Shown in pieces: positions 26,317 through 34,443 of a DNA stretch of 35,175 nt; positions within the stretch are counted from its first letter, which is position 1; each line of letters begins with the position of its first letter. The notes beneath the pieces were generated by a model. That model had not been told where the DNA came from and made no database searches. It worked only from the letters and a program-made list of their open reading frames with translations. The translations under genes were made by a program, and so were the position numbers. This DNA is from Nitrospirae bacterium RIFCSPLOWO2_02_FULL_62_14. GTDB taxonomy: Bacteria > Nitrospirota > Nitrospiria > Nitrospirales > Nitrospiraceae. Location of the stretch: NCBI GenBank assembly GCA_001805245.1, contig MHEU01000075.1:9672-44846 (forward strand). The letters are read 5' to 3'.

Positions 26317-26585
26317 CAGGGTGGCACGCCCCTCGCTTCAGCGCCTCCCGGAACGGCCCTTTCGGACTTTGCCGGGCGGAAGCCTTCTGGAATTCCCGCG
26401 GCCGCGGTCGTTGACCGCGGTGCCTTGGTCAGTTCCAGCTTTCCTGCCCGCTAAAGCCTCGGTGGGTGCCCCGCTTCTCCGGCAAAGTCCGCTCGATCTC
26501 GCCACCCCACTTTTTAGAATTGAAAGGCGACAGGCCACTTGCAAGCCCGTCGCCTTTAACGCTTCGCCACGTTCAGTGTGCTGCT
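26317..26585 (+). repeat. Left copy of the ~268-bp inverted repeat bounding the accessory island
   Basis: This sequence recurs inverted at 31762-32027 with high identity over most of its length, for example the stretch from CTTCTGGAATTCCCGCGG to the CCGGCAAAGTCCGCTCGATC block. Inside are nested inverted repeats: GGGTGGC / GCCACCC outside, GGACTTTGCCGG / CCGGCAAAGTCC next, CTGGAA / TTCCAG, and an 8-bp core hairpin CCGCGGTC-GTT-GACCGCGG. It then has an AAAGGCGAC / GTCGCCTTT hairpin and ends in the attC-like arm TAACGCTTCGCC. No gene is visible from 26305 to 26898. Confidence 0.8.
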
Positions 26586-26650
26586 CCGGTAGCTATTGCC
26601 CTCGAAACATTGCCTGCCCTGAGTGCGTCGAAGGGCCTGCCCAGAGCCCG
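26557..26650 (+). repeat. 94-bp direct repeat (attC-like arm plus TTCGAC-type repeat), copy 1
   Basis: This 94-bp sequence is repeated at 28058-28151 with two mismatches. It begins TAACGCTTCGCCACGTTC, an arm shared with the palindromic sites at 28961, 30098 and 31719, and ends in a CCCTGAG...TCGAAGGGC hairpin-type repeat. The two copies bracket the Fic gene. Confidence 0.85.
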
Positions 26651-26822
26651 CCCATCGAGAGCCTCTGGGTCGAGCGATCGAGGGTCCGCTTCTTTGACCA
26701 CCATCTACCGAAAAATTGTGTTCTGACCCCACGCAGCTCGCCTCAGATCTCTTGTTATCGTACAAGTCATTGGCATGATACATAAAATACGATTCAAAAG
26801 AACTCTTGCAATCCTCCGGTAA

Positions 26823-26920
26823 TTTTGAAAGAATTGCGCACATTTCTTTCAAAGATAGAAATGCTTTGAAAGTGGCCATTGACCCCTGGGTAGTACGTAT
26901 GGACGCGAAAGACTTTCAAA
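26823..26920 (+). promoter_or_regulatory. Cluster of four CTTTCAAAG half-sites around the fic start
   Basis: A perfect inverted repeat CTTTCAAAG (26846-26854) - 9 bases - CTTTGAAAG (26864-26872) lies 27 bases before the chosen fic start. Further half-sites are TTTTGAAAG at 26823-26831 and CTTTCAAA at 26913-26920 inside the first codons. The arrangement looks like an operator array; the Fic protein itself has a C-terminal winged-helix domain that could bind it. Confidence 0.6.
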
Positions 26921-28053
26921 CGCCGAGTGCCGGACGTGTTGTGAAGATGCCGCAAGGCTATCTGGCGTTTGTTCCTTCTCTCCTGCCTCCCGCGCTGAAG
27001 TACGACAACGATTTGGTGCTCGCGCTTTCTCGTGCCGATGCCGCACTGAGCGAACTGTCCGGTCTTGGCCGGCAATTACCGAATCCGCATTTACTCATCA
27101 GTCCCTATGTGCGTCGTGAGGCCGTTCTCTCTTCTCGCATCGAGGGCACGAAGGCCAGTCTTTCCGATCTATTACTGGATGAGTTGGACGCGGGAGTCTC
27201 GCGAAGCGGGGACGATGATGTCCGGGAAGTCCGGTGCTATGTCACGGCGCTGGAATATGGACTCAAGCGGCTCTCGACCCTGCCGCTCTCGTTGCGTCTC
27301 GTTCGGGAGATCCATGCCCGGCTCATGAAAGGCGTCAGAGGCGAACGGGCCATACCGGGAGAGTTCCGTCGTTCGCAGAATTGGATCGGTCCTTCCGGGA
27401 GCACGCCGGCCGCCGCATCGTATGTCCCGCCGCCTCCCGAGCACATGGACGAATTGTTGGCCGATTGGGAACGATTCCTCCACACACGGGACCGATTTCC
27501 CGATTTGGTTCAGTGCGCGATCATGCACGAGCAGTTTGAGGCGATTCACCCCTTCCTCGATGGAAACGGACGGGTCGGTCGCTTGTTGATCACGTTGTTT
27601 CTTGTGGAGCGAGGTCGTCTGTCGCAGCCGTTGTTGTACTTGTCCGCCTATATCGAAGCCCATCGGCAGGATTATTACGATTTGCTGCAACGGGTTCGGA
27701 CGCACGGCGACTGGACGGCATGGCTTCTGTTCTTTATTACGGGCGTCCTCGACATTTCCACGGAGGCCGCGGGCCAGGCCAGACGGCTCATTGATCTGCG
27801 GGAGCAATCTCGAGGGCGTCTGCGCGACAAGGCCAAAGCGCTGGTGTTACTGGATGAACTGTTCGTAAACCCTTACATGACGGTATCCAAGGCCGAACGC
27901 GTCTTAAAGGTCTCAAATCCAACCGCACGGCAAGCCGTTCTGTTACTTGAGCGAAAAGGATTGCTGGAGGAAGTCAGCGGCCGTCAGTGGGGACGGTTGT
28001 ATTTGGCCAAGCCGATCATGAACGTTCTCGAACCACCCTCGAAGAAGACCTGA
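26899..28053 (+). CDS. Fic-domain protein with inhibitory helix and C-terminal winged helix
   Basis: A 384-aa Fic protein; the family transfers AMP (or another nucleotide part) from NTPs to target proteins. The N-terminal Fic_N region starts 'MDAKDFQTPSAGR' and 'GYLAFVPSLLPP'. The inhibitory helix motif SSRIEG (residues 78-83, Ser/Thr-x-x-x-Glu-Gly) is present, so activity is probably self-restrained. The active-site motif HPFLDGNGRVGR (217-228) is intact. Residues ~310-380 form a winged-helix domain ('TVSKAERVLKVSNPTARQAVLLLERKGLL'). ATG 26899 matches usual family starts; an in-frame TTG at 26806 would run through the operator cluster. The gene sits between two 94-bp direct repeats, as a cassette would, and its stop is four bases before the second. 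Confidence 0.9.
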   Translation: MDAKDFQTPSAGRVVKMPQGYLAFVPSLLPPALKYDNDLVLALSRADAALSELSGLGRQLPNPHLLISPYVRREAVLSSRIEGTKASLSDLLLDELDAGVSRSGDDDVREVRCYVTALEYGLKRLSTLPLSLRLVREIHARLMKGVRGERAIPGEFRRSQNWIGPSGSTPAAASYVPPPPEHMDELLADWERFLHTRDRFPDLVQCAIMHEQFEAIHPFLDGNGRVGRLLITLFLVERGRLSQPLLYLSAYIEAHRQDYYDLLQRVRTHGDWTAWLLFFITGVLDISTEAAGQARRLIDLREQSRGRLRDKAKALVLLDELFVNPYMTVSKAERVLKVSNPTARQAVLLLERKGLLEEVSGRQWGRLYLAKPIMNVLEPPSKKT

Positions 28054-28057
28054 CCCT

Positions 28058-28151
28058 TAACGCTTCGCCACGTTCAGCGTGCTGCTCCGGTAGCTATTGC
28101 CCTCGAAACATTGCCTGCCCTGAGTGAGTCGAAGGGCCTGCCCAGAGCCCG
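28058..28151 (+). repeat. 94-bp direct repeat, copy 2, directly after fic
   Basis: Identical to 26557-26650 in 92 of 94 positions, starting four bases after the fic stop codon with TAACGCTTCGCCACG. The near-identity, compared with the more diverged related sites at 28961, 30098 and 31719, suggests the fic segment arrived or was duplicated recently. Confidence 0.85.
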
Positions 28152-28188
28152 TCGAGGGGCCTGCTCCATGTCTCTTGTTTATTCCCCA

Positions 28189-28217
28189 TTGCCCTGCTTG
28201 GGGAAATTCGCTAGACT
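28189..28217 (+). promoter_or_regulatory. Candidate promoter of the ORF6N gene
   Basis: TTGCCC (28189-28194), 17-base spacer, TAGACT (28212-28217): four of six matches at each box. It lies upstream of the palindrome at 28262 and the gene start at 28318. Confidence 0.35.
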
Positions 28218-28261
28218 GCCAGTCAATTTATTAGGCTTCCAAATAATAGATGGAACCGGTC

Positions 28262-28284
28262 TAAGGTCACAGAATGTGACCTTA
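28262..28284 (+). promoter_or_regulatory. Perfect 10-bp-arm palindrome upstream of the ORF6N gene
   Basis: TAAGGTCACA (28262-28271), GAA, TGTGACCTTA (28275-28284). It is 34 bases before the start codon, in the leader. Its core TCACA-n3-TGTGA resembles the TCGCA-n3-TGCGA cores of the three palindromes inside the gene, so it may be an operator recognised by the encoded DNA-binding protein. Confidence 0.65.
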
Positions 28285-28317
28285 AAGAATGCGACTATAC
28301 AGGGAGGCGACTGAACA

Positions 28318-28956
28318 ATGCGCGACCTGATCCCGCATGAACAGATCGAAAAGAGCATTCTTTTTCTGCGCGGGCAGAAAGTCATCCTGGATGCCGACTT
28401 GGCGAGGCTTTACGGGGTGCCGACCTATAGGTTCAACGAAGCGTTCAAACGAAATCGCCATCGGTTTCCTGATGATTTCGCCTTTCAATTGACGGCAGAC
28501 GAGTTCGCTGATTTGAGATCACAATATGCGACCTCAAGCGTGCAAGGCGCCGATAAATTGGAAGATACGGAGGACTCATCGCAATTTGCGATGAGTTCAT
28601 CCCGGAGACCTGGCCGTAAGGATCGCGCGAACCGGTCGCAATTTGCGACCAGTTCCAGCCGTCATCGTGGTGCCGCCTATCGTCCTTGGGCATTTACGGA
28701 GCATGGTGCGCTGATGGCCGCGAATATTCTCCGCAGCGAGCGCGCGGTGCAGATGAGCGTGATTGTGGTGCGCGCCTTTGTTCGATTGAGGGAAATGCTG
28801 GCAACCAACAAGACGCTGGCGGCAAAGCTGGCCGAGTTGGAGCGAAAAGTGGCCAGTCATGACGAGCATATCCGGTCGCTGTTTCAAACAATCCGCCAAC
28901 TGATGAACCCCCGGCCGTCCAAACCCCGTCGGATCGGCTTTCAGGCACGGGGCTGA
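28318..28956 (+). CDS. ORF6N-domain DNA-binding protein with internal repeat insertion
   Basis: A 212-aa protein. The N-terminal ORF6N domain is clear: 'IEKSILFLRGQKVILDADLARLYGV', 'RFPDDFAFQLTADEFADLRSQ' and, after an insertion, 'YRPWAFTEHGALMAANILRSERAVQM'. The family is found in phage and toxin-antitoxin-like settings and binds DNA. In usual members LRSQxxT is soon followed by the PxAFTE motif; here ~40 extra residues carry two more copies of the (S)SQFATSS peptide (copies at 67-74, 87-95, 107-114). A coiled-coil tail follows ('LAAKLAELERKVASHDEHI') and ends in the common basic 'RRIGFQARG'. GGGAGG lies eleven bases before the ATG. Its stop is four bases before an attC-like site. Confidence 0.85.
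   Translation: MRDLIPHEQIEKSILFLRGQKVILDADLARLYGVPTYRFNEAFKRNRHRFPDDFAFQLTADEFADLRSQYATSSVQGADKLEDTEDSSQFAMSSSRRPGRKDRANRSQFATSSSRHRGAAYRPWAFTEHGALMAANILRSERAVQMSVIVVRAFVRLREMLATNKTLAAKLAELERKVASHDEHIRSLFQTIRQLMNPRPSKPRRIGFQARG
28513..28655 (+). repeat. Three palindromes inside the ORF6N coding sequence
   Basis: Palindrome 1 (28513-28537): TTGAGATCACA-ATA-TGCGACCTCAA, 9 of 11 pairs. Palindrome 2 (28574-28596): ACTCATCGCAA-T-TTGCGATGAGT, all 11 pairs. Palindrome 3 (28629-28655): 13-bp arms with GGTCGCAA-T-TTGCGACC core, 12 of 13 pairs. Each encodes the SQ(F/Y)A(T/M) peptide in the same frame. Cores are conserved while the flanking arms differ between copies yet remain self-complementary. Confidence 0.8.
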
Positions 28957-28960
28957 CTGC

Positions 28961-29020
28961 TAACGCTTCGCCACGTTCGACGGGCAATTCTGGTAGTGAT
29001 CGTCCTCTGCCTTGATCGCT
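28961..29020 (+). repeat. attC-like site after the ORF6N gene
   Basis: Begins TAACGCTTCGCCACGTTCG four bases after the ORF6N stop, followed by GGGCAATTCTGGTAGTGAT, which matches the central part of the sites at 30098 and 31719 (minus strand). Only one arm is well conserved; the distal arm is degenerate, so the end point is approximate. Confidence 0.55.
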
Positions 29021-29043
29021 TTCTGGTGGACCTCGATTAATAG

Positions 29044-29071
29044 TTGACCAAAATTCGGTCACCTGTAGAAT
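29044..29071 (+). promoter_or_regulatory. Promoter with operator-like repeat for the antitoxin gene
   Basis: TTGACC (29044-29049), 16-base spacer, TAGAAT (29066-29071). The TGACC of the -35 box and GGTCA at 29057-29061 form an inverted repeat overlapping the promoter, as expected for autorepression by a Phd/YefM-type antitoxin. The start codon at 29079 is only eight bases beyond the -10 box, so the mRNA would be nearly leaderless. Confidence 0.55.
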
Positions 29072-29078
29072 AGAAATC

Positions 29079-29336
29079 ATGTCAAAGATGCTGCCGACCT
29101 CAAGAGTCAGAACACGTCTTCATGAGCTGGTCACGGCTGTGGCCAAAAGGGGAGAAACAATTGTGATCACTCGATACGGGAGGCCTGCCGCTGTCCTGGT
29201 GACCTACGAGAAATGCCGGCGGCAAAAGGAAACGCCGGACATTCTCTCCGATCCGGACATGATGCGGCAGATCGGGCAGAGCCGCCGGTTTTACGCCAGG
29301 GGAGCGAAGGGGCTGTCTCAGGATGATGTACTCTGA
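29079..29336 (+). CDS. Phd/YefM-family antitoxin without an adjacent toxin
   Basis: An 85-aa protein with the Phd/YefM fold: 'TSRVRTRLHELVTAVAKRGETIVITRYGRPAAVLVTYEKC' (residues ~5-45), which binds DNA, followed by a less structured tail that would normally cover a toxin. No RelE/ParE/Doc gene follows; the next gene encodes a nucleotidyltransferase 84 bases downstream. No Shine-Dalgarno is present and the promoter lies immediately upstream, so translation may be leaderless, from ATG 29079 or 29088. It could be an orphan left by toxin loss or an antitoxin acting on a distant toxin. Confidence 0.8.
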   Translation: MSKMLPTSRVRTRLHELVTAVAKRGETIVITRYGRPAAVLVTYEKCRRQKETPDILSDPDMMRQIGQSRRFYARGAKGLSQDDVL

Positions 29337-29348
29337 CCCCGTGCAGTG

Positions 29349-29377
29349 TTGACAGAATCGACCTTGGACCGTAGGCT
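29349..29377 (+). promoter_or_regulatory. Candidate promoter of mntA-hepT
   Basis: A consensus TTGACA (29349-29354) with a 17-base spacer to TAGGCT (29372-29377), a weak -10. It lies 44 bases before the mntA start, which has GGGGAG nine bases upstream. Confidence 0.4.
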
Positions 29378-29420
29378 GTGCGCGTGAGTCGGTGATCTGA
29401 TCGTAGGGGAGTTGTAAGAA

Positions 29421-29741
29421 ATGACAAAAGTGTCCAGATCAGGTGCCCGCCAGAAGCTTCGGCGGTACATGAATGCCCTACGGCGGCAGTTGCCCATGCT
29501 GCGAACCAGGTTTCACGTCCGGTACCTCGGCGTGTTTGGTTCGTATGTCCACGGGACTCCCCGGAGGGGCAGCGATCTTGACGTGTTGGTGGAGTTTTCC
29601 GAGCAACCGAGCCTTTTCGAGTTTCTTGAGCTTGAAAACCGGTTGTCCTCCCTCCTGGGCGTTAAAGTGGACCTGGTGATGAAAGGGACGCTCAAACCGC
29701 TCATCGGCCGTCGGATTCTCGCCGAGGTCGTGGGTCTGTGA
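29421..29741 (+). CDS. mntA: MntA-type minimal nucleotidyltransferase antitoxin
   Basis: A 106-aa minimal nucleotidyltransferase. The catalytic signature GS-x10-DxD is complete: '[20 protein letters not shown]' with GS at 40-41 and Asp52/Asp54; '[13 protein letters not shown]' supplies the third acidic residue (Asp ~88). In characterised MntA-HepT pairs this enzyme adds AMP to a tyrosine of the HEPN toxin and neutralises it. Its stop TGA overlaps the GTG start of hepT by four bases (GTGA), the usual arrangement. Confidence 0.9.
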
Positions 29742-30100
29742 CGCGCACGCGCGAATTTCTCGATTACCTCGCCGATATCCAGCACGCCGCACAGCACATC
29801 TCGAAATTCATCGCCGGCATGACTTGGCCCAGGTTCTCGCGGGATCAGAAGACCATCTTCGCGGTGGTCAGGGCCTTCGAGATTATCGGGGAAGCGGCCA
29901 AGAAAATCCCGCCGTCCGTCCGCAAGCGGCATCCGAAGGTCCCGTGGAAGCAGATGGCGGGCATGCGGGACAAGCTCATCCATGAGTACTTCGGAGTGAA
30001 CTACGAGGTGCTGTGGAAAACGGCCAAGGAGGATATCCCTCCAGTACGACGGCTCATGGCGAAAGTGCTGAAGGCAGAAACCAGACGAGCGCGCAGATAA
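29738..30100 (+). CDS. hepT: HepT-type HEPN ribonuclease toxin
   Basis: A 120-aa all-helical HEPN protein. The RX4HXY motif is intact: R77-DKLI-H82-E-Y84 in '[21 protein letters not shown]'; Arg and His form the RNase site and Tyr84 is the residue modified by MntA in studied pairs. Upstream '[18 protein letters not shown]' is the family's first conserved helix. The GTG start overlaps mntA. The TAA stop is itself the first part of an attC-like site (TAACGCTTCGCC), so the toxin-antitoxin pair looks like a cassette. Confidence 0.9.
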
Positions 30101-30157
30101 CGCTTCGCCAGGTTCGATGGGCAGTTCCTACAGTGATTGTCCTCCGACCATTGATGC
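30098..30157 (+). repeat. attC-like site overlapping the hepT stop codon
   Basis: TAACGCTTCGCCAGGTTCGATGGGC begins with the hepT stop codon; on the minus strand the site aligns over ~55 bases with the full palindrome at 31719-31790. The distal arm (near GATGCC) is degenerate. Confidence 0.55.
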
Positions 30158-30173
30158 CTTTGGTTCTGGCTCC

Positions 30174-30202
30174 CCCCTTCGACAGGCTCAGGGCAGGCCC
30201 TC
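30174..30202 (+). repeat. TTCGAC-type short interspersed repeat
   Basis: CCCTTCGACAGGCTCAGGGCAGG resembles the hairpin repeats inside the 94-bp direct repeats (26618-26650, 28119-28151) and at 33292-33351. The family is a short CCCT...AGGG or CTCAGGG-type imperfect palindrome that occurs only in non-coding gaps here. Confidence 0.6.
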
Positions 30203-30209
30203 CGAAATA

Positions 30210-30238
30210 TTGACGCAATTCTTACGAAAGCGTAGCCT
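30210..30238 (+). promoter_or_regulatory. Candidate promoter of the MazG-HNH operon
   Basis: TTGACG (30210-30215), 17-base spacer, TAGCCT (30233-30238). The -35 is good, the -10 weak. It lies 50 bases before the 52-aa gene that starts the operon. Confidence 0.35.
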
Positions 30239-30287
30239 GCATCCATCCGAAACGGCGAATATTCCACCTTATTTTTCTAGGAGCGAA

Positions 30288-30446
30288 ATGAACAAGAAGA
30301 AGCCTGCTTCACAGATCAAAGATGACGTGAAAAGCATGTGTGGCATGCTGAAGGCCGATGATTCGGTCACCAAGGCCTTGCTTCGCGAGCGGGACGAAGA
30401 CAAGAAGCGCGAGGCGACAAAGTACGGAAAAATCCGCCGGGGGTAA
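30288..30446 (+). CDS. 52-aa charged protein heading the MazG-HNH operon
   Basis: A short gene with a good Shine-Dalgarno (TAGGAG, four to five bases before ATG 30288). The product is highly charged (MNKKKPASQIKDDVKSMCGM...) with a predicted helix and a basic end (KREATKYGKIRRG). It stops three bases before the MazG-like gene, so the three genes are probably co-translated. I recognise no family. It could be a regulator or a small partner of the downstream enzymes. Confidence 0.65.
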   Translation: MNKKKPASQIKDDVKSMCGMLKADDSVTKALLRERDEDKKREATKYGKIRRG

Positions 30447-30449
30447 ACG

Positions 30450-30797
30450 ATGGATCGTCTAGAAGCTCTCACCAATGATCTTCGGGAATTTGTGGCAGAA
30501 CGGGAATGGGGCCAATTCCACGATCCCAAGAATCTTGCCATGGCAGTAGCTTCTGAGGCAGGCGAACTTTTGGCTGAATATCGTTGGGTAGCAAATACCG
30601 AAGCTGATCATCTAACAAAAGACCCGGATCGACGTGCCAAAATTTCAGGCGAAGCTGCCGATGTAGGGATTGCCCTGTTTCTATTTTGCGATCGAATCGG
30701 TGTGGACTTACTGGAGGCGATTCGGATCAAGATGAAAACGAATTCCCAAAACTATCCCGTTAGTAGATCAAAGGGCAGGGCAGAAAGACCAAGATAA
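30450..30797 (+). CDS. MazG-like nucleotide pyrophosphohydrolase
   Basis: A 115-aa all-alpha NTP pyrophosphatase of the MazG/RS21-C6 type. The metal-binding pattern ExxE...ExxD is present: E36-A-G-E39 in 'AVASEAGELLAEYRW' and E68-A-A-D71 in 'ISGEAADVGIALFLFCDRIGVDL'. Relatives hydrolyse (d)NTPs, several preferring dCTP or modified nucleotides; the substrate here is unknown. The C-terminal 'NSQNYPVSRSKG' is the usual N.KYP.....G substrate loop. It is packed between the 52-aa gene (3 bases) and the HNH gene (0 bases), which suggests a joint role in nucleic acid defence. Confidence 0.85.
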   Translation: MDRLEALTNDLREFVAEREWGQFHDPKNLAMAVASEAGELLAEYRWVANTEADHLTKDPDRRAKISGEAADVGIALFLFCDRIGVDLLEAIRIKMKTNSQNYPVSRSKGRAERPR

Positions 30798-31724
30798 ATG
30801 AAGCTTTGGGTTGGAGTAACGGACGGGGATTGGTACCGCTTTCTGAGTCAACGTGCAGACCTCGATGAGATCAATTTCTGGCAGCCAGGAGGCAATCGAG
30901 AGTTCAATGCTCTTTCGCCTGGCGAGCTTTTCCTCTTCAAGCTTCATTATCCCGAGAATGTGATTGTGGGGGGAGGGTTTTTCGCAACTTCTTCAATTCT
31001 CCCTTGCAGTCTCGCATGGGAAACATTTGGAGAAAGGAATGGGGCTACCACCTATACGGAGATGAGACGACGAATTGAAAAGTACCGTAGGTCCTCACCT
31101 AAGCCACATGAAGATTACAAGATCGGATGCATTATTCTCGAGCAACCGTTCTTTTTAGATAGGTCCACGTGGATTACTGTTCCTTCTAGCTTCGCTAGAA
31201 ACATTGTTCAGGGAAAGACCTACGATCTTGCCTCGCAAGACGGGAGGACGCTTTGGGATTCTGTGCGATCAACGCTCCAGATGCGAAACGTATCCAATGA
31301 AATATCCTCGGAAGGCCCACGACCTGTGTATGGCGAGCCAGTCCTTGTGCGACCCCGCCTAGGGCAAGGAGCTTTTCGACTGTTGGTTACTGATACATAT
31401 AAGCGGAGATGTGCCATCACAAGAGAGAAAGCTTTGCCGGTACTGCAGGCGGCACATATCAAGCCGGTCGCTGAAGGTGGGCAGCATCAAATCAGCAATG
31501 GACTTCTTCTACGTTCCGATATCCATGCACTGTTCGACCACGGGTATGTGACAGTTAGCCCTGATTTCCAGTTTCGAGTCAGCCAGAGGCTTAAAGCGGA
31601 TTTCGACAACGGGGAAAACTATTTCCGCCTGCAAGGGACAAAAATATGGGTGCCGCCACATGTTCGCGATCAGCCCAGCCGGGAAGTTTTAGAATGGCAT
31701 GCTGATACGATGTTCTTGGGATAA
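30798..31724 (+). CDS. HNH endonuclease with PUA/EVE-like N-terminal domain
   Basis: A 308-aa protein. Residues ~1-140 ('KLWVGVTDGDWYRFL', 'FWQPGGNREFNALSPGELFLFKLH', 'VGGGFF', 'CIILEQPFFL') look like a PUA-superfamily (EVE-like) module, a fold that reads modified bases. Residues ~195-255 hold an HNH_2-type nuclease: 'YKRRCAITRE', 'LQAAHIKPVAEGGQHQISNGLLLRSDIHALFDHGYV' with His220, Asn234 and His243/248 as likely catalytic or metal residues. Such fusions are typical of modification-dependent restriction. The gene begins on the base after the MazG stop. Its TAA stop lies within the R''-like arm of the attC-like palindrome at 31719. Codon use is less GC-rich than the housekeeping genes, consistent with acquisition. 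Confidence 0.85.
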   Translation: MKLWVGVTDGDWYRFLSQRADLDEINFWQPGGNREFNALSPGELFLFKLHYPENVIVGGGFFATSSILPCSLAWETFGERNGATTYTEMRRRIEKYRRSSPKPHEDYKIGCIILEQPFFLDRSTWITVPSSFARNIVQGKTYDLASQDGRTLWDSVRSTLQMRNVSNEISSEGPRPVYGEPVLVRPRLGQGAFRLLVTDTYKRRCAITREKALPVLQAAHIKPVAEGGQHQISNGLLLRSDIHALFDHGYVTVSPDFQFRVSQRLKADFDNGENYFRLQGTKIWVPPHVRDQPSREVLEWHADTMFLG

Positions 31725-31790
31725 CGGATGCCAAGGTTTGTAGGGCAATTACTATTGGCATAGCCCACTGCACTTGGCGAAGCGTTAAAG
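31719..31790 (+). repeat. Complete attC-like imperfect palindrome after the HNH gene
   Basis: Left arm GGATAAC - GGAT - GCCAAG (31719-31735) pairs with right arm CTTGGC - GAAGC - GTTAAAG (31773-31790): AAC/GTT outer boxes and a 6-bp inner box with short unpaired spacers between, as in integron attC sites. The centre folds too (GGGC...GCCC with CAAT/ATTG inside). The last base departs from GTTRRRY. The arm GGCGAAGCGTTA is the reverse of the TAACGCTTCGCC found after three other genes of the island. Confidence 0.65.
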
Positions 31791-32027
31791 GCGACGGGCT
31801 TGTGAAGCGGCCCGTCGCCTTTCAATTTAAAAAAGTGGGGTGACGAGATCGAGCGGACTTTGCCGGAGAAGCGGGGGACCCGCCGAGGCTTTAGCGGGCA
31901 GGAAAGCTGGAACTGACCAAGGCACCGCGGTCAGCGACCGCGGCCGCGGGAATTCCAGAAGGTTTCCGCATGCTAAAGCCCGGAAGGGTCGCTTCGAGAG
32001 GCGCGGACGCGAGGGCTTGCCACCCTG
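31762..32027 (-). repeat. Right copy of the ~268-bp inverted repeat bounding the accessory island
   Basis: Inverted relative of 26317-26585. It begins within the attC-like arm, continues with a perfect 13-bp hairpin (AAAGGCGACGGGC at 31787-31799, GCCCGTCGCCTTT at 31810-31822) and holds the same core hairpin (CCGCGGTC-AGC-GACCGCGG). The outer GGGTGGC end is conserved; the GGACTTTGCCGG inner arm is diverged in this copy. From 31791 to 32075 there is no gene. Confidence 0.8.
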
Positions 32028-32075
32028 CTTTAACCGCTGTTTTGTTCAGGAAACGGATAGCGAGGGGGAGTAAGG

Positions 32076-33182
32076 CTATTCCTGCGGCGGCGTTCCGCCT
32101 TCCCACAACTTGACGGTCCGATCCCACGACGCGCTGGCCAACTGCATGCCGTCCGGCGAAAACGCAAGTGCCCTGACCCCGCCCGCATGGCCCTTCAGTG
32201 TCCGGAAGTTCCGGCCCGTCGCGATCTCCCAGAACTTGATCGTCTGATCGTCGCTGGCGCTGACCAGGACCCTGCCGTCCGGCGAGACGACGAGCGCCCG
32301 CACCCATCCGGAATGGCCCTTCAGCGTCCGGAGCTCGGTCAACTGCGGCATCTCGAAGAATTTGATCGTGGTGTCGCGGCTGCCGCTGATCAGCAGCTTT
32401 CCATCCGGAGTATAGGTCAGGGCCCCGATCCAGTAATCCATCGCTTTTTGGAAGCCGCCGTCGTCTTCGACGAAGTATCCGCGCTGCTCCGTGCCATCGT
32501 ACGCATCGTCCACCCAATGACCGTTGTGAAGCAGCTTTTCCTCTCCGCTCGGCAGCACCTCCCAGACCCTGATTTTGCCGATGTCGTTGCCGCTGGCGAG
32601 GTGGATGCCATCCGGCGAAAAGGCCACGCAGACGGACCAATTGTGGTCGAGCGCATCCTTGCCGAGCAGGGTCATCAGGTCCGTGCCGGTCGTGACCTCC
32701 CAGATTTTGATATCCTTGTTATGAGAGCCGCGCGCCAGCATCAGCCCGTCCGGGGACAGCGACAGGCTGCAGACGTTGTGATCGTAGCGGGTGAAGAGCA
32801 ATTTGGTCGGCGCGCCGGTTTTGGGGTTCCAGAGCCGGATCGTGCGGTCCTCGCTGCCGGTGGCGAGCGTCTGGCCGTCCGGCGTGAACACCGCGGCGCG
32901 GATGTCGTGGGTATGCCCGCGCATCGACCGCAGCAGGCGGCCGGTCTCGATGTCCCAGACGCGCACCAGCCGGTCGACCCCGCCGCTGACCAGGGTCTGG
33001 CCGTCCGGCGCGAACGCGACGGTCCAGACGCCATGCGAATGACCGCGGAAGGTCTTGACCTCCCGCGCATCCGCCTTCCAATATTCCAGGAAGTTGACGG
33101 ATGGCCGTGGCGGCGCCGCCGAGAGGGCGGCCATGCCGGAGGAGGAACCAGGCACTGATGGAGCGGATATCGGGTCAGCCAT
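32076..33182 (-). CDS. WD40-repeat protein
   Basis: A 368-aa protein made of seven WD40 repeats, enough for one closed beta-propeller (residues ~40-365). Typical units: 'FRGHSHGVWTVAFAPDGQTLVSGGVDRLVRVWDIETGRLL', 'LATGSEDRTIRLWNPKTG', 'LKGHSGWVRALVVSPDGRVLVSASDDQTIKFWEIATG', ending 'LASASWDRTVKLWEGG'. There is no signal peptide or enzymatic domain, so it is a scaffold or binding protein of unknown partner. It is the only clear long gene on the minus strand and its 3' end faces the island's right repeat. The start at 33182 lacks a Shine-Dalgarno; an internal Met at residue 17 is possible. Confidence 0.9.
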   Translation of the reverse strand: MADPISAPSVPGSSSGMAALSAAPPRPSVNFLEYWKADAREVKTFRGHSHGVWTVAFAPDGQTLVSGGVDRLVRVWDIETGRLLRSMRGHTHDIRAAVFTPDGQTLATGSEDRTIRLWNPKTGAPTKLLFTRYDHNVCSLSLSPDGLMLARGSHNKDIKIWEVTTGTDLMTLLGKDALDHNWSVCVAFSPDGIHLASGNDIGKIRVWEVLPSGEEKLLHNGHWVDDAYDGTEQRGYFVEDDGGFQKAMDYWIGALTYTPDGKLLISGSRDTTIKFFEMPQLTELRTLKGHSGWVRALVVSPDGRVLVSASDDQTIKFWEIATGRNFRTLKGHAGGVRALAFSPDGMQLASASWDRTVKLWEGGTPPQE

Positions 33183-33220
33183 GCGATCTGTTCAAGAGCT
33201 TATGCGACGATGGGCACCAT

Positions 33221-33250
33221 TTGCAAATGACAGCGGCTCAAGATTATAAT
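33221..33250 (+). promoter_or_regulatory. Candidate promoter in the divergent gap, ATTATAAT core
   Basis: TTGCAA (33221-33226), 18-base spacer, TATAAT (33245-33250) on the plus strand. Because ATTATAAT is self-complementary it also offers a -10 on the minus strand toward the WD40 gene, though without a good -35. Confidence 0.4.
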
Positions 33251-33291
33251 TTTCCTGCGACGATCTTAAAAGAAGCCTTTCAACCAAGTCA

Positions 33292-33351
33292 ACCCTTCGA
33301 CCTCGAGAAGGTCGAGGGAGCTCAGGGTTGACCCTGAGTTCATCGAAGGGT
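33292..33351. repeat. Three-stem cloverleaf-like repeat (TTCGAC family)
   Basis: Outer stem ACCCTTCGA (33292-33300) / TCGAAGGGT (33343-33351) encloses two inner stems: CCTCGA (33301-33306) / TCGAGG (33312-33317) and CTCAGGGT (33321-33328) / ACCCTGAG (33331-33338). All three stems are perfect. It lies in the gap between the divergent WD40 and HELTH genes and would sit in the leader of the latter. Confidence 0.75.
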
Positions 33352-33444
33352 CAAGGCGCGTTCATTACAACCGAGTTCTCCTCCAGGAAGCCTCGGAACG
33401 GGCGGTCCCGTCAGTATTGAGACGCAGCACGGGAGCCACTCACC

Positions 33445-34443
33445 ATGGAAATCAGATTTCAGCCGGCGTTGCTTCAGGAAGTCATCGACTCGTTCGTCGA
33501 GAAGACCGAGCGCGAAGGCGATCCGACCTACTACAAGGAGTTTCATGAACTGGCCGATCCCATCTATGAGAAGTTTTCCCTGGACGACCGGGAGCCGGAA
33601 TTCAAGAAGCTGTACCAGTATCTGTTCGGCACGTGGGGGTTCTCGGACATCATCCGCGACGCCTTCAACGAATTTCCGAGTTTGAAGGAAAAAGTCGGGA
33701 TCGTGCTGGTCAAGGGCGTGCTGAAGGAAGATCAGGAAGGCGTGGATGTGCTTCGGAAGTGGGGCTCCATCGAACAGGACCTGGCCAGGCAGTTCGAGGA
33801 GAAGGGGTTGAAGGGCGCCGGCATCAAGTTGATCCCGAGACGGTTCTACGATCCGGCCCTGACCCGCTACTGCCGCCATGAACTCACGCATGTCGCGGAT
33901 CTGCTGGACTCGAACTTCGGATACGATCCGGATACGAAAGTCGGACAGAATCCCGGCGAAGAGACGCTGGTGCTGCAGCGGTACCGGGTGCTCTGGTGCC
34001 TGCACATCGACAGCCGGCTGCAGCGGGCCGGCAAGGAGTCCATGCTGGGCAAGGACGACCGGTTCAAGGAATTCCGTTCGTGGTACCGGAAAATCCCGCC
34101 CGCCCAGCTCAAGTCCGTGTTCGAAGGGCTCTGGCAGACGGAGTCGATGACGCATTCCGAGCTCGTCGAGATGGCGGCCGATACGCTGCGCGTCATGGAT
34201 CGGGCGGTGGATACCGAAGGCGGGGAGGTTCCCGAAACGCAAAACAAGGTCATGCTGATGCCGGGGTTCCCGTGCCCGCTCTGCCGGTTCCCGACGTACA
34301 GCTGGGTGGAAGACATGAACAACAAGGTGGAGAAGCACGTCCTGGACTTTATACGCGAGAACCATCCGGGATGGGATGTGGAATACGGCGCGTGCGATCG
34401 CTGCGTGGAAGTCTACAAGTTGCGCGCGGATGGTGTAATGTAA
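33445..34443 (+). CDS. Conserved protein with zincin-like HELTH motif and a CxxC pair
   Basis: A 332-aa soluble protein. 'YCRHELTHVADLLDSNFGYD' contains HELTH (residues 145-149), an HExxH zinc-metallopeptidase signature; no obvious glutamate third ligand is placed, though Asp/His residues downstream could serve. Near the C-terminus C277-PL-C280 and C317-DR-C320 form a possible zinc-ribbon. The rest is helical and charged ('VLKEDQEGVDVLRKWGS'). I recognise no named family; protease activity is a guess from the motif. GGGAG lies nine bases before the ATG. The ferredoxin gene starts 20 bases after the stop, so the two are likely co-transcribed. Confidence 0.8.
   Translation: MEIRFQPALLQEVIDSFVEKTEREGDPTYYKEFHELADPIYEKFSLDDREPEFKKLYQYLFGTWGFSDIIRDAFNEFPSLKEKVGIVLVKGVLKEDQEGVDVLRKWGSIEQDLARQFEEKGLKGAGIKLIPRRFYDPALTRYCRHELTHVADLLDSNFGYDPDTKVGQNPGEETLVLQRYRVLWCLHIDSRLQRAGKESMLGKDDRFKEFRSWYRKIPPAQLKSVFEGLWQTESMTHSELVEMAADTLRVMDRAVDTEGGEVPETQNKVMLMPGFPCPLCRFPTYSWVEDMNNKVEKHVLDFIRENHPGWDVEYGACDRCVEVYKLRADGVM

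Follow-up and report, generated by a model that had tools for sequence, protein, structure and literature searches.

Nucleases that act on modified DNA are usually regarded as stand-alone genes without need of protection. TagI, in which an SRA sensor is joined to an HNH nuclease (6ghs), has no nucleotide pyrophosphatase partner that we know of. VcaM4I, an EVE-HNH enzyme dependent on 5-methylcytosine or 5-hydroxymethylcytosine (5mC/5hmC; 6yex), has a catalytic histidine, H224, known from the H224A mutant, and the accessible text of its description makes no mention of a MazG partner (0 occurrences; PMC7897488). Among enzymes of the nucleotide pool, DCTPP1 (RS21-C6), a cellular housekeeping enzyme in animals, has a Km of 85 μM for 5-methyl-deoxycytidine triphosphate (5-methyl-dCTP) versus 152 μM for dCTP, its loss raises cellular 5-methyl-dCTP, and the MazG of M. 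tuberculosis acts on 5-OH-dCTP (accessible parts of PMC4491611). For Streptococcus, a small nucleotide pyrophosphohydrolase is mentioned in passing as the neighbour of a type IV restriction gene: a MutT homologue adjoins SauUSI homologues (Fig. 9 legend, PMC7641849). We analysed a 35,175-nucleotide stretch of the genome of Nitrospirae bacterium RIFCSPLOWO2_02_FULL_62_14 (the window), in which a gene for a MazG-like pyrophosphohydrolase is followed by a gene for a PUA-superfamily sensor joined to an HNH nuclease (30450-31724). Compared with the Streptococcus arrangement, as far as its legend describes it, the hydrolase has a MazG rather than a NUDIX fold and the nuclease is a PUA-HNH protein rather than a SauUSI homologue.

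The data presented below directly support the assignment of the two proteins to their families, the recurrence of the two genes side by side and the action of purifying selection on each of them. We tentatively read the pair as a two-gene type IV (modification-dependent) restriction module with MazG as its guard, an interpretation to which we give a little less than an even chance.

The MazG-like and PUA-HNH proteins

The MazG-like protein matched PF12643 above the family cut-off, and its best solved relatives were RS21-C6 and human dCTP pyrophosphatase 1 (2a3q, 6sqw), aligned at 2.3e-20 without gaps over residues 11-111 (101 residues). The metal motif, described as intact by a first-pass annotation made from the DNA letters, is indeed complete (ExxE, E36 and E39; ExxD, E68 and D71) and is conserved in the MazGs found beside related nucleases: W20, E36, E39, W46, E68 and N98 were invariant in 11 such partners and D71 was present in at least 90% of them. 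The positions of DCTPP1 W47, W73 and N125 are kept, whereas the place of H38 is occupied by L11; a limited literature search found no paper on these residues. Together, the ExxE...ExxD motif and the family-level similarity place the protein in the DCTPP1/RS21-C6 family, although it is shorter than DCTPP1 and lies beside a nuclease gene. By analogy with these relatives, the window MazG would be expected to act on dCTP-type or 5-modified dCTP precursors.

Both genes appear to be under constraint. Identity of the window MazG to its two nearest paired homologues was 72% (locus L002) and 80% (locus L040), and the ratio of nonsynonymous to synonymous change (pN/pS) against them was 0.14-0.19. For MazG and HNH alike, synonymous sites were near saturation against these loci and pN/pS was about 0.08-0.20, and we therefore conclude that both genes are real and kept by selection.

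The HNH protein consists of a sensor (about residues 1-160) and an HNH_2 nuclease (about residues 185-308). The nuclease half matched PF13391 above the cut-off, and H220, N234 and H243 were invariant in 19/19 aligned homologues, which bears out the intact HNH motif seen in the first pass. By sequence, its nearest relative among solved proteins was VcaM4I (6yex, 2.8e-7), with H220 aligning with the catalytic H224. The N-terminal 160 residues matched no Pfam family. We built an AlphaFold2 model from 15 sequences, with a predicted local distance difference test score (pLDDT) of 83.5 and a predicted template-modelling score (pTM) of 0.69. Foldseek matched the model to VcaM4I (1.3e-10), ZmASCH (1.6e-5) and TagI (3.3e-5). 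Comparison by VIA gave Z 12.7 with TagI over the HNH half (108 aligned, root-mean-square deviation (rmsd) 2.6), Z 11.9 with ZmASCH over the sensor (137 aligned, rmsd 3.2) and Z 11.8 with VcaM4I (231 aligned, rmsd 16.8). The model leaves the relative placing of sensor and nuclease free, with 22 linker residues below pLDDT 50 and the rmsd of 16.8 to whole VcaM4I.

Model residues 1-166 matched ASCH, EVE, YTH and McrB N-terminal domains in Foldseek and VIA, as expected of a PUA-superfamily fold; after ZmASCH, the VIA Z scores were 8.3 for the EVE protein PSPTO5229, 8.3 for the McrB N-domain, 8.1 for THYN1 and about 8 for YTH domains. The PUA-like sensor fused to HNH that had been proposed from the letters was thus recovered in the model and in the PF13391 match. 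Like VcaM4I, the window protein has an N-terminal PUA-superfamily domain, a linker helix and a C-terminal HNH domain; unlike that of VcaM4I, its sensor is undetectable by sequence and, going by Z score, may lie nearer to ASCH than to EVE. The model thus supports the architecture of a modification-dependent enzyme of the VcaM4I type, and by analogy the protein may cleave DNA containing modified bases.

Recurrence of MazG beside sensor-nuclease genes

We searched 395 Nitrospirota genomes with the HNH protein and with the MazG profile, counting places that matched the sensor half or most of the HNH protein (16 genomes, 17 places) and dropping those that matched the HNH half only. MazG lay within 300 bp of the nuclease in 10 of the 16 genomes, where chance would give about 0.003 of the 17 places. 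Gene order is not fixed: MazG was the upstream gene in three (G000, G195, G372) and the downstream gene in the remaining seven. Of these ten, G287 keeps a mere remnant, a deletion having joined the initial third of HNH to the final 31 residues of MazG (L014, 1291-1731). Broken copies were found of HNH in five genomes (G147, G342, G388, G027, G372) and of MazG in G195; at the level of loci, HNH was broken beside an intact MazG in three siblings that probably reflect one event (L011, L012, L013) and in L016, and was split in L008/L040, an order of decay that carries no inference on a guard role, as HNH is 2.7 times longer than MazG and some breaks are possibly assembly errors. A scan of species genomes for the window-type nuclease returned 17 loci, some of them fragments, with an adjoining MazG in four (L032, L036, L040, L041), one of which (L040) is the contig of G372 and had already been counted.

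The homologues lie among restriction genes. Their neighbours include GmrSD (L032, L033), a type I specificity subunit with Mrr (L034), a type I/III R subunit (L035), Mrr_cat_2 (L037), a helicase (L041) and a type ISP enzyme (L048). The first pass had put forward association with defence islands as a check; the genes found beside homologues are GmrSD, Mrr, type I restriction-modification and type ISP genes. In L036, HNH, MazG and a NUDIX hydrolase follow one another in a row.

Searching viral contigs from MazG yielded 55 loci in 37 clusters (90% identity), three of which run into the contig edge, directly or within 43 bases. An HNH gene adjoined MazG in 12 clusters by profile, mostly at most 20 bases downstream; one was of the window type and 11 carried another N-terminal domain. 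In two further clusters, MazG was accompanied by a different HNH-like protein, recognised by eye and without a Pfam match (L112), or followed by an MrcB_N protein (L115). The model of one representative of the second family (L104, pLDDT 90) was YTH-like, its nearest solved fold being the N-terminal YTH domain of TgaMcrB (6p0f/6p0g; VIA Z 15.3, 155 aligned, rmsd 2.6), which is itself joined to McrB; the sensor encoded in the window belongs to another sub-type. This YTH-like domain is fused to several types of HNH.

A reverse search of viral contigs, starting from the YTH-like nuclease, found 49 loci, of which the 48 with a usable anchor formed 22 clusters. In 16 of the 22 a same-strand MazG lay directly upstream, with gaps of -113 to +53, a count in which only clusters outside the seed alignments A5 and A6 are independent, since all members of these had been found through MazG; no MazG was present in the other six (L186, L204, L205, L215, L224, L225). 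Among 398 Bacillota genomes two had the YTH-like domain, both with MazG directly upstream. On plasmids, 26 records had the domain and eight were opened: MazG adjoined it in three (L052, L053, L232; by annotation or profile), was a probable neighbour in L231, where a tblastn match fell inside the upstream gene, and did not adjoin it in L228, L229, L230 and L233. The MazGs of this family keep the same conserved, dCTP-type pocket residues.

A cytosine DNA methylase gene lies near the YTH-like nuclease in L205 and L224 (by eye; without MazG) and in L232 (with MazG). The YTH-like domain also starts haloarchaeal proteins annotated as restriction endonucleases (L233 and plasmid matches H62, H65, H67, H68, H73 and H74), and phage MazG-like genes without HNH often adjoin DNA methylase- or helicase-like genes (L091, L097, L099, L116, L117, L119, L120; by eye).

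We then placed 85 MazG domains in one tree (114 alignment columns), 11 from beside window-type HNH, 23 from beside the YTH-like type and 49 with neither. The starred branches force at least 6 changes for the window type and 7 for the YTH-like type, where a change is a gain or a loss and the class with neither partner includes loci cut by contig ends. A single clade was rejected for the partner MazGs of each sensor type (approximately unbiased (AU) test, p 3e-69 and 1e-10, respectively), indicating that the pairing arose or was reshuffled repeatedly. The same nuclease stands beside MazGs that fall within ordinary Nitrospirota lineages (L036, L004) and beside others of distant lineages (L041, L065). 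The pairing thus extends over several phyla and onto prophages, involves two sensor families and occurs in both gene orders. Because a second family is paired with MazG as well, one partner class, a sensor with a nuclease for modified DNA, has been chosen repeatedly.

The locus and its boundaries

The window genome is an incomplete assembly of 2.66 Mb. The three open reading frames (ORFs) of the operon proposed in the first pass were recovered at their places on one strand, with gaps of 3 bases between the 52-residue ORF and MazG and 0 bases between MazG and HNH (Table 1). The cassette-like boundaries noted at that stage also held up, both as a dip in GC content (0.48-0.51 across MazG-HNH versus about 0.60-0.65 farther out) and as an inverted repeat bracketing 26330-32015.

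Table 1. Features of the window in and around the MazG-HNH pair.
Feature	Position	Strand	Remarks
Dispersed inverted repeat, ~283 nt, left copy	26330..26612	.	outer edge of toxin-antitoxin/defence block
Fic protein	26806..28053		full-length; near SoFic (PADLOC 4.2e-119)
Phd/YefM-type antitoxin gene	29079..29336		directly behind it, no recognised toxin
MntA-like nucleotidyltransferase and HepT-like RNase genes	29421..30100		type VII toxin-antitoxin-like; HepT stop codon within a repeat copy
52-aa ORF	30288..30446	+	orphan C-terminal tail of AbrB/VapB-type antitoxin; judged a neighbour, outside the pair
MazG-like all-alpha nucleotide pyrophosphohydrolase, DCTPP1/RS21-C6 type, 115 aa	30450..30797	+	PF12643, 4.6e-7
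PUA-superfamily (ASCH/EVE/YTH-like) sensor and HNH_2 nuclease, 308 aa	30798..31724	+	PF13391, 4.3e-11
Dispersed inverted repeat, ~283 nt, right copy	31732..32015	.	directly past HNH stop codon; inverted partner 26330-26612

The 52-residue protein was considered as a possible third component. It gave matches at E<=0.01 in 23 of the 395 Nitrospirota genomes, its own included, mostly over residues 11-48, which align with the toxin-binding tails of AbrB-type antitoxins as in VapB, a genuine though partial homology that supports the ORF as more than a chance frame. In the opened loci the matches were tails of ~87-residue AbrB-type antitoxins beside a PIN-type toxin gene, most clearly in L156, L158 and L159 (families named by eye). 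A Pfam scan found no AbrB DNA-binding domain in the protein, and no adjacent PIN toxin was found: MazG comes next, and the scanned window ORFs include no PIN family. The protein matched no PHROG, PADLOC or Pfam family, its NCBIfam and PHROG hits (E 0.018 and 0.046) were judged to be chance, and tblastn on plasmids was empty. Its gene is missing upstream of MazG from the closest homologous pairs, L002 and L040, which have in common a short conserved leader in its place, and there was no worthwhile match elsewhere among 47 loci. The 3-nt gap to MazG would suit a protein that works with MazG-HNH as an inhibitor or adaptor, and toxins are neutralised by antitoxin tails; set against the exclusive match to tails of antitoxins of PIN-type toxins and the absence of the gene beside the related pairs, such a role is very improbable. 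Judged from its sequence, the protein is a leftover VapB-type antitoxin tail that does not travel with the MazG-HNH pair, and it fits its surroundings, where toxin-antitoxin-type genes lie just upstream. The three-gene unit of the first-pass annotation is accordingly given up: the trio rarely co-occurs, the outcome named in advance as speaking against it, whereas MazG and the PUA-HNH gene recur together more often than chance allows.

The block upstream contains Fic, ORF6N, a Phd antitoxin and the MntA-HepT pair, and the ~283-nt inverted repeat encloses the entire Fic/ORF6N/Phd/MntA-HepT/MazG-HNH block. The inner ~56-nt part of the repeat recurs at 28058, 28961 and 30098, right behind Fic, ORF6N and HepT, and its inner 84 nt have 29 genome-wide matches. 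Since copies are also found on either side of other genes, namely one of Eco57I-type restriction-modification, one for a DUF433 protein and one that is HNH_5-like (L256 1921-4932 on G000:C37; L260 on C52; L251 on C37), the element seems to be a genome-wide marker of accessory or defence cargo sites. An integron cassette was considered and set aside as insufficiently supported: an attC-like fold is possible behind HNH (31719-31796) but its second half is not kept in other copies of the element, and no integron integrase exceeded the family cut-off in the incomplete genome (best 85 bits versus 265).

Membership of the pair in a catalogued defence system was ruled out, as PADLOC-DB 2.0.0 matches were limited to the HNH nuclease half: MazG matched 0 families, the HNH protein matched partially (5.4e-17, residues 182-307), and none of the modelled systems was found. 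The 10 neighbouring ORFs scanned (26806-34443) included no DNA methyltransferase gene.

The role of MazG beside the nuclease

From domain architecture and family membership we infer what the sensor reads, what MazG hydrolyses and how MazG would act as a guard, as follows. The PUA-superfamily domain would flip out and read a modified base and the HNH domain would cut, as the architecture suggests, and MazG, as its family suggests, would convert dCTP-type precursors, preferably 5-modified or oxidised, to monophosphates. The cell would thereby attack phage DNA with modified bases, and MazG would keep modified precursors, made by the phage or released by digestion, out of host DNA; the nuclease would therefore not be turned on the host. 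Three roles are possible for MazG, namely a guard, an attacker that starves the phage, or a passenger. As an attack on one phage, the activities of MazG and HNH partly oppose each other; the guard role avoids this conflict and is held most likely because the two activities become complementary. The data are compatible with the division of labour suggested in the first-pass annotation, in which one enzyme removes odd nucleotides and the other cuts DNA that contains them.

Several observations weigh against a guard. The window-type nuclease has no MazG neighbour in 6 of the 16 Nitrospirota genomes, in 13 of the 17 loci of the species-genome scan and in 5 of 6 viral loci (MazG only at L065), and none was seen at any of the 4 plasmid loci holding most of the HNH protein. 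With so many nucleases lacking the neighbour, MazG is not essential; it is a frequent partner in Nitrospirota and a minority partner outside. MazG is also common by itself (99 of 395 Nitrospirota genomes), and L002, whose HNH protein is 80% identical to that of the window, has a stop codon inside MazG and an open HNH frame. The TgaMcrB YTH domain is described as a reader of N6-methyladenine (6mA) in the accessible parts of PMC7897488 and PMC12707154. By analogy YTH-like sensors may read 6mA, from which a dCTP-type enzyme offers no obvious protection; a guard would then need to be a broader enzyme, or the sensor to read something else.

The same genomic data also fit a pair in which both proteins attack, MazG hydrolysing the modified deoxynucleoside triphosphates (dNTPs) of the phage (or dCTP), thus slowing replication or forcing unmodified DNA that other systems can cut, and HNH cutting the modified DNA that remains. 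Cells are known to defend themselves by depleting dNTPs with dCTP deaminases and dGTPases, and the pair occurs on prophages and viral contigs, where defence cargo is usual. MazG is, moreover, among the predicted, unvalidated defence domains of DefensePredictor in the accessible part of PMC13092281. Against this, removal of modified precursors would leave HNH less to see, and MazG has outlasted a broken or missing HNH in L011, L012, L013 and L016, which agrees no less well with a housekeeping value; on balance we consider a joint attack rather unlikely. MazG might instead ease general mutagenic or damaged-nucleotide stress, or act on a nucleotide signal, in cells with defence islands, uncoupled from HNH and co-located as co-inherited paired cargo. 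Such independence would account for the small share (10) of the 99 MazG-bearing Nitrospirota genomes that have it beside the nuclease, for 8 of 10 opened plasmid MazG loci without an HNH neighbour and for the DNA methylases next to other viral MazGs, yet repeated pairing with two sensor families at few-base gaps and the rejection of a single clade exceed what passive co-inheritance would give, which makes it distinctly unlikely. Still less probable is that the HNH protein targets RNA or unmodified DNA, or serves as a homing-type nuclease, and that MazG is a passenger with no relation to it. ASCH and YTH domains do also have RNA-binding or enzymatic roles, and the ASCH structures closest to the sensor are, by their titles and by the function of ZmASCH, enzymes or linked to RNA; the closest solved relatives of the nuclease half are, however, the HNH halves of VcaM4I and TagI, and restriction genes neighbour the homologues.

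PUA-HNH modification-dependent enzymes and DCTPP1-like enzymes were already known separately, and together they may form an undescribed anti-virus module. The literature searched, which lay mostly outside subscription journals and preprints, does not describe the MazG-HNH pair in its accessible text (including PMC13092281, PMC7824862, PMC7897488, PMC7641849, PMC7461809, PMC11090510, PMC12839542, PMC10853773 and PMC12707154); the pair may be among the systems of Fig. 6F in PMC13092281. The presence of the pair on prophages suggests a use in phage-phage competition. The pairing also offers hints in both directions, as the target of MazG should reveal what the sensor reads.

It is possible, if doubtful, that MazG-sensor-HNH constitutes a separate kind of type IV defence, one with an enzyme dedicated to the nucleotide pool, in which the nuclease would be safe only because MazG excludes the hunted base, including recycled phage bases, from host replication. 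If this were true, MazG would be the metabolic counterpart of the protecting methyltransferase in classical restriction-modification. Should a dNTP pyrophosphatase be the repeated partner of modification-dependent nucleases, the nucleotide pool rather than DNA methylation may be what separates self from non-self in such cells, or, alternatively, MazG may be a second line of attack.

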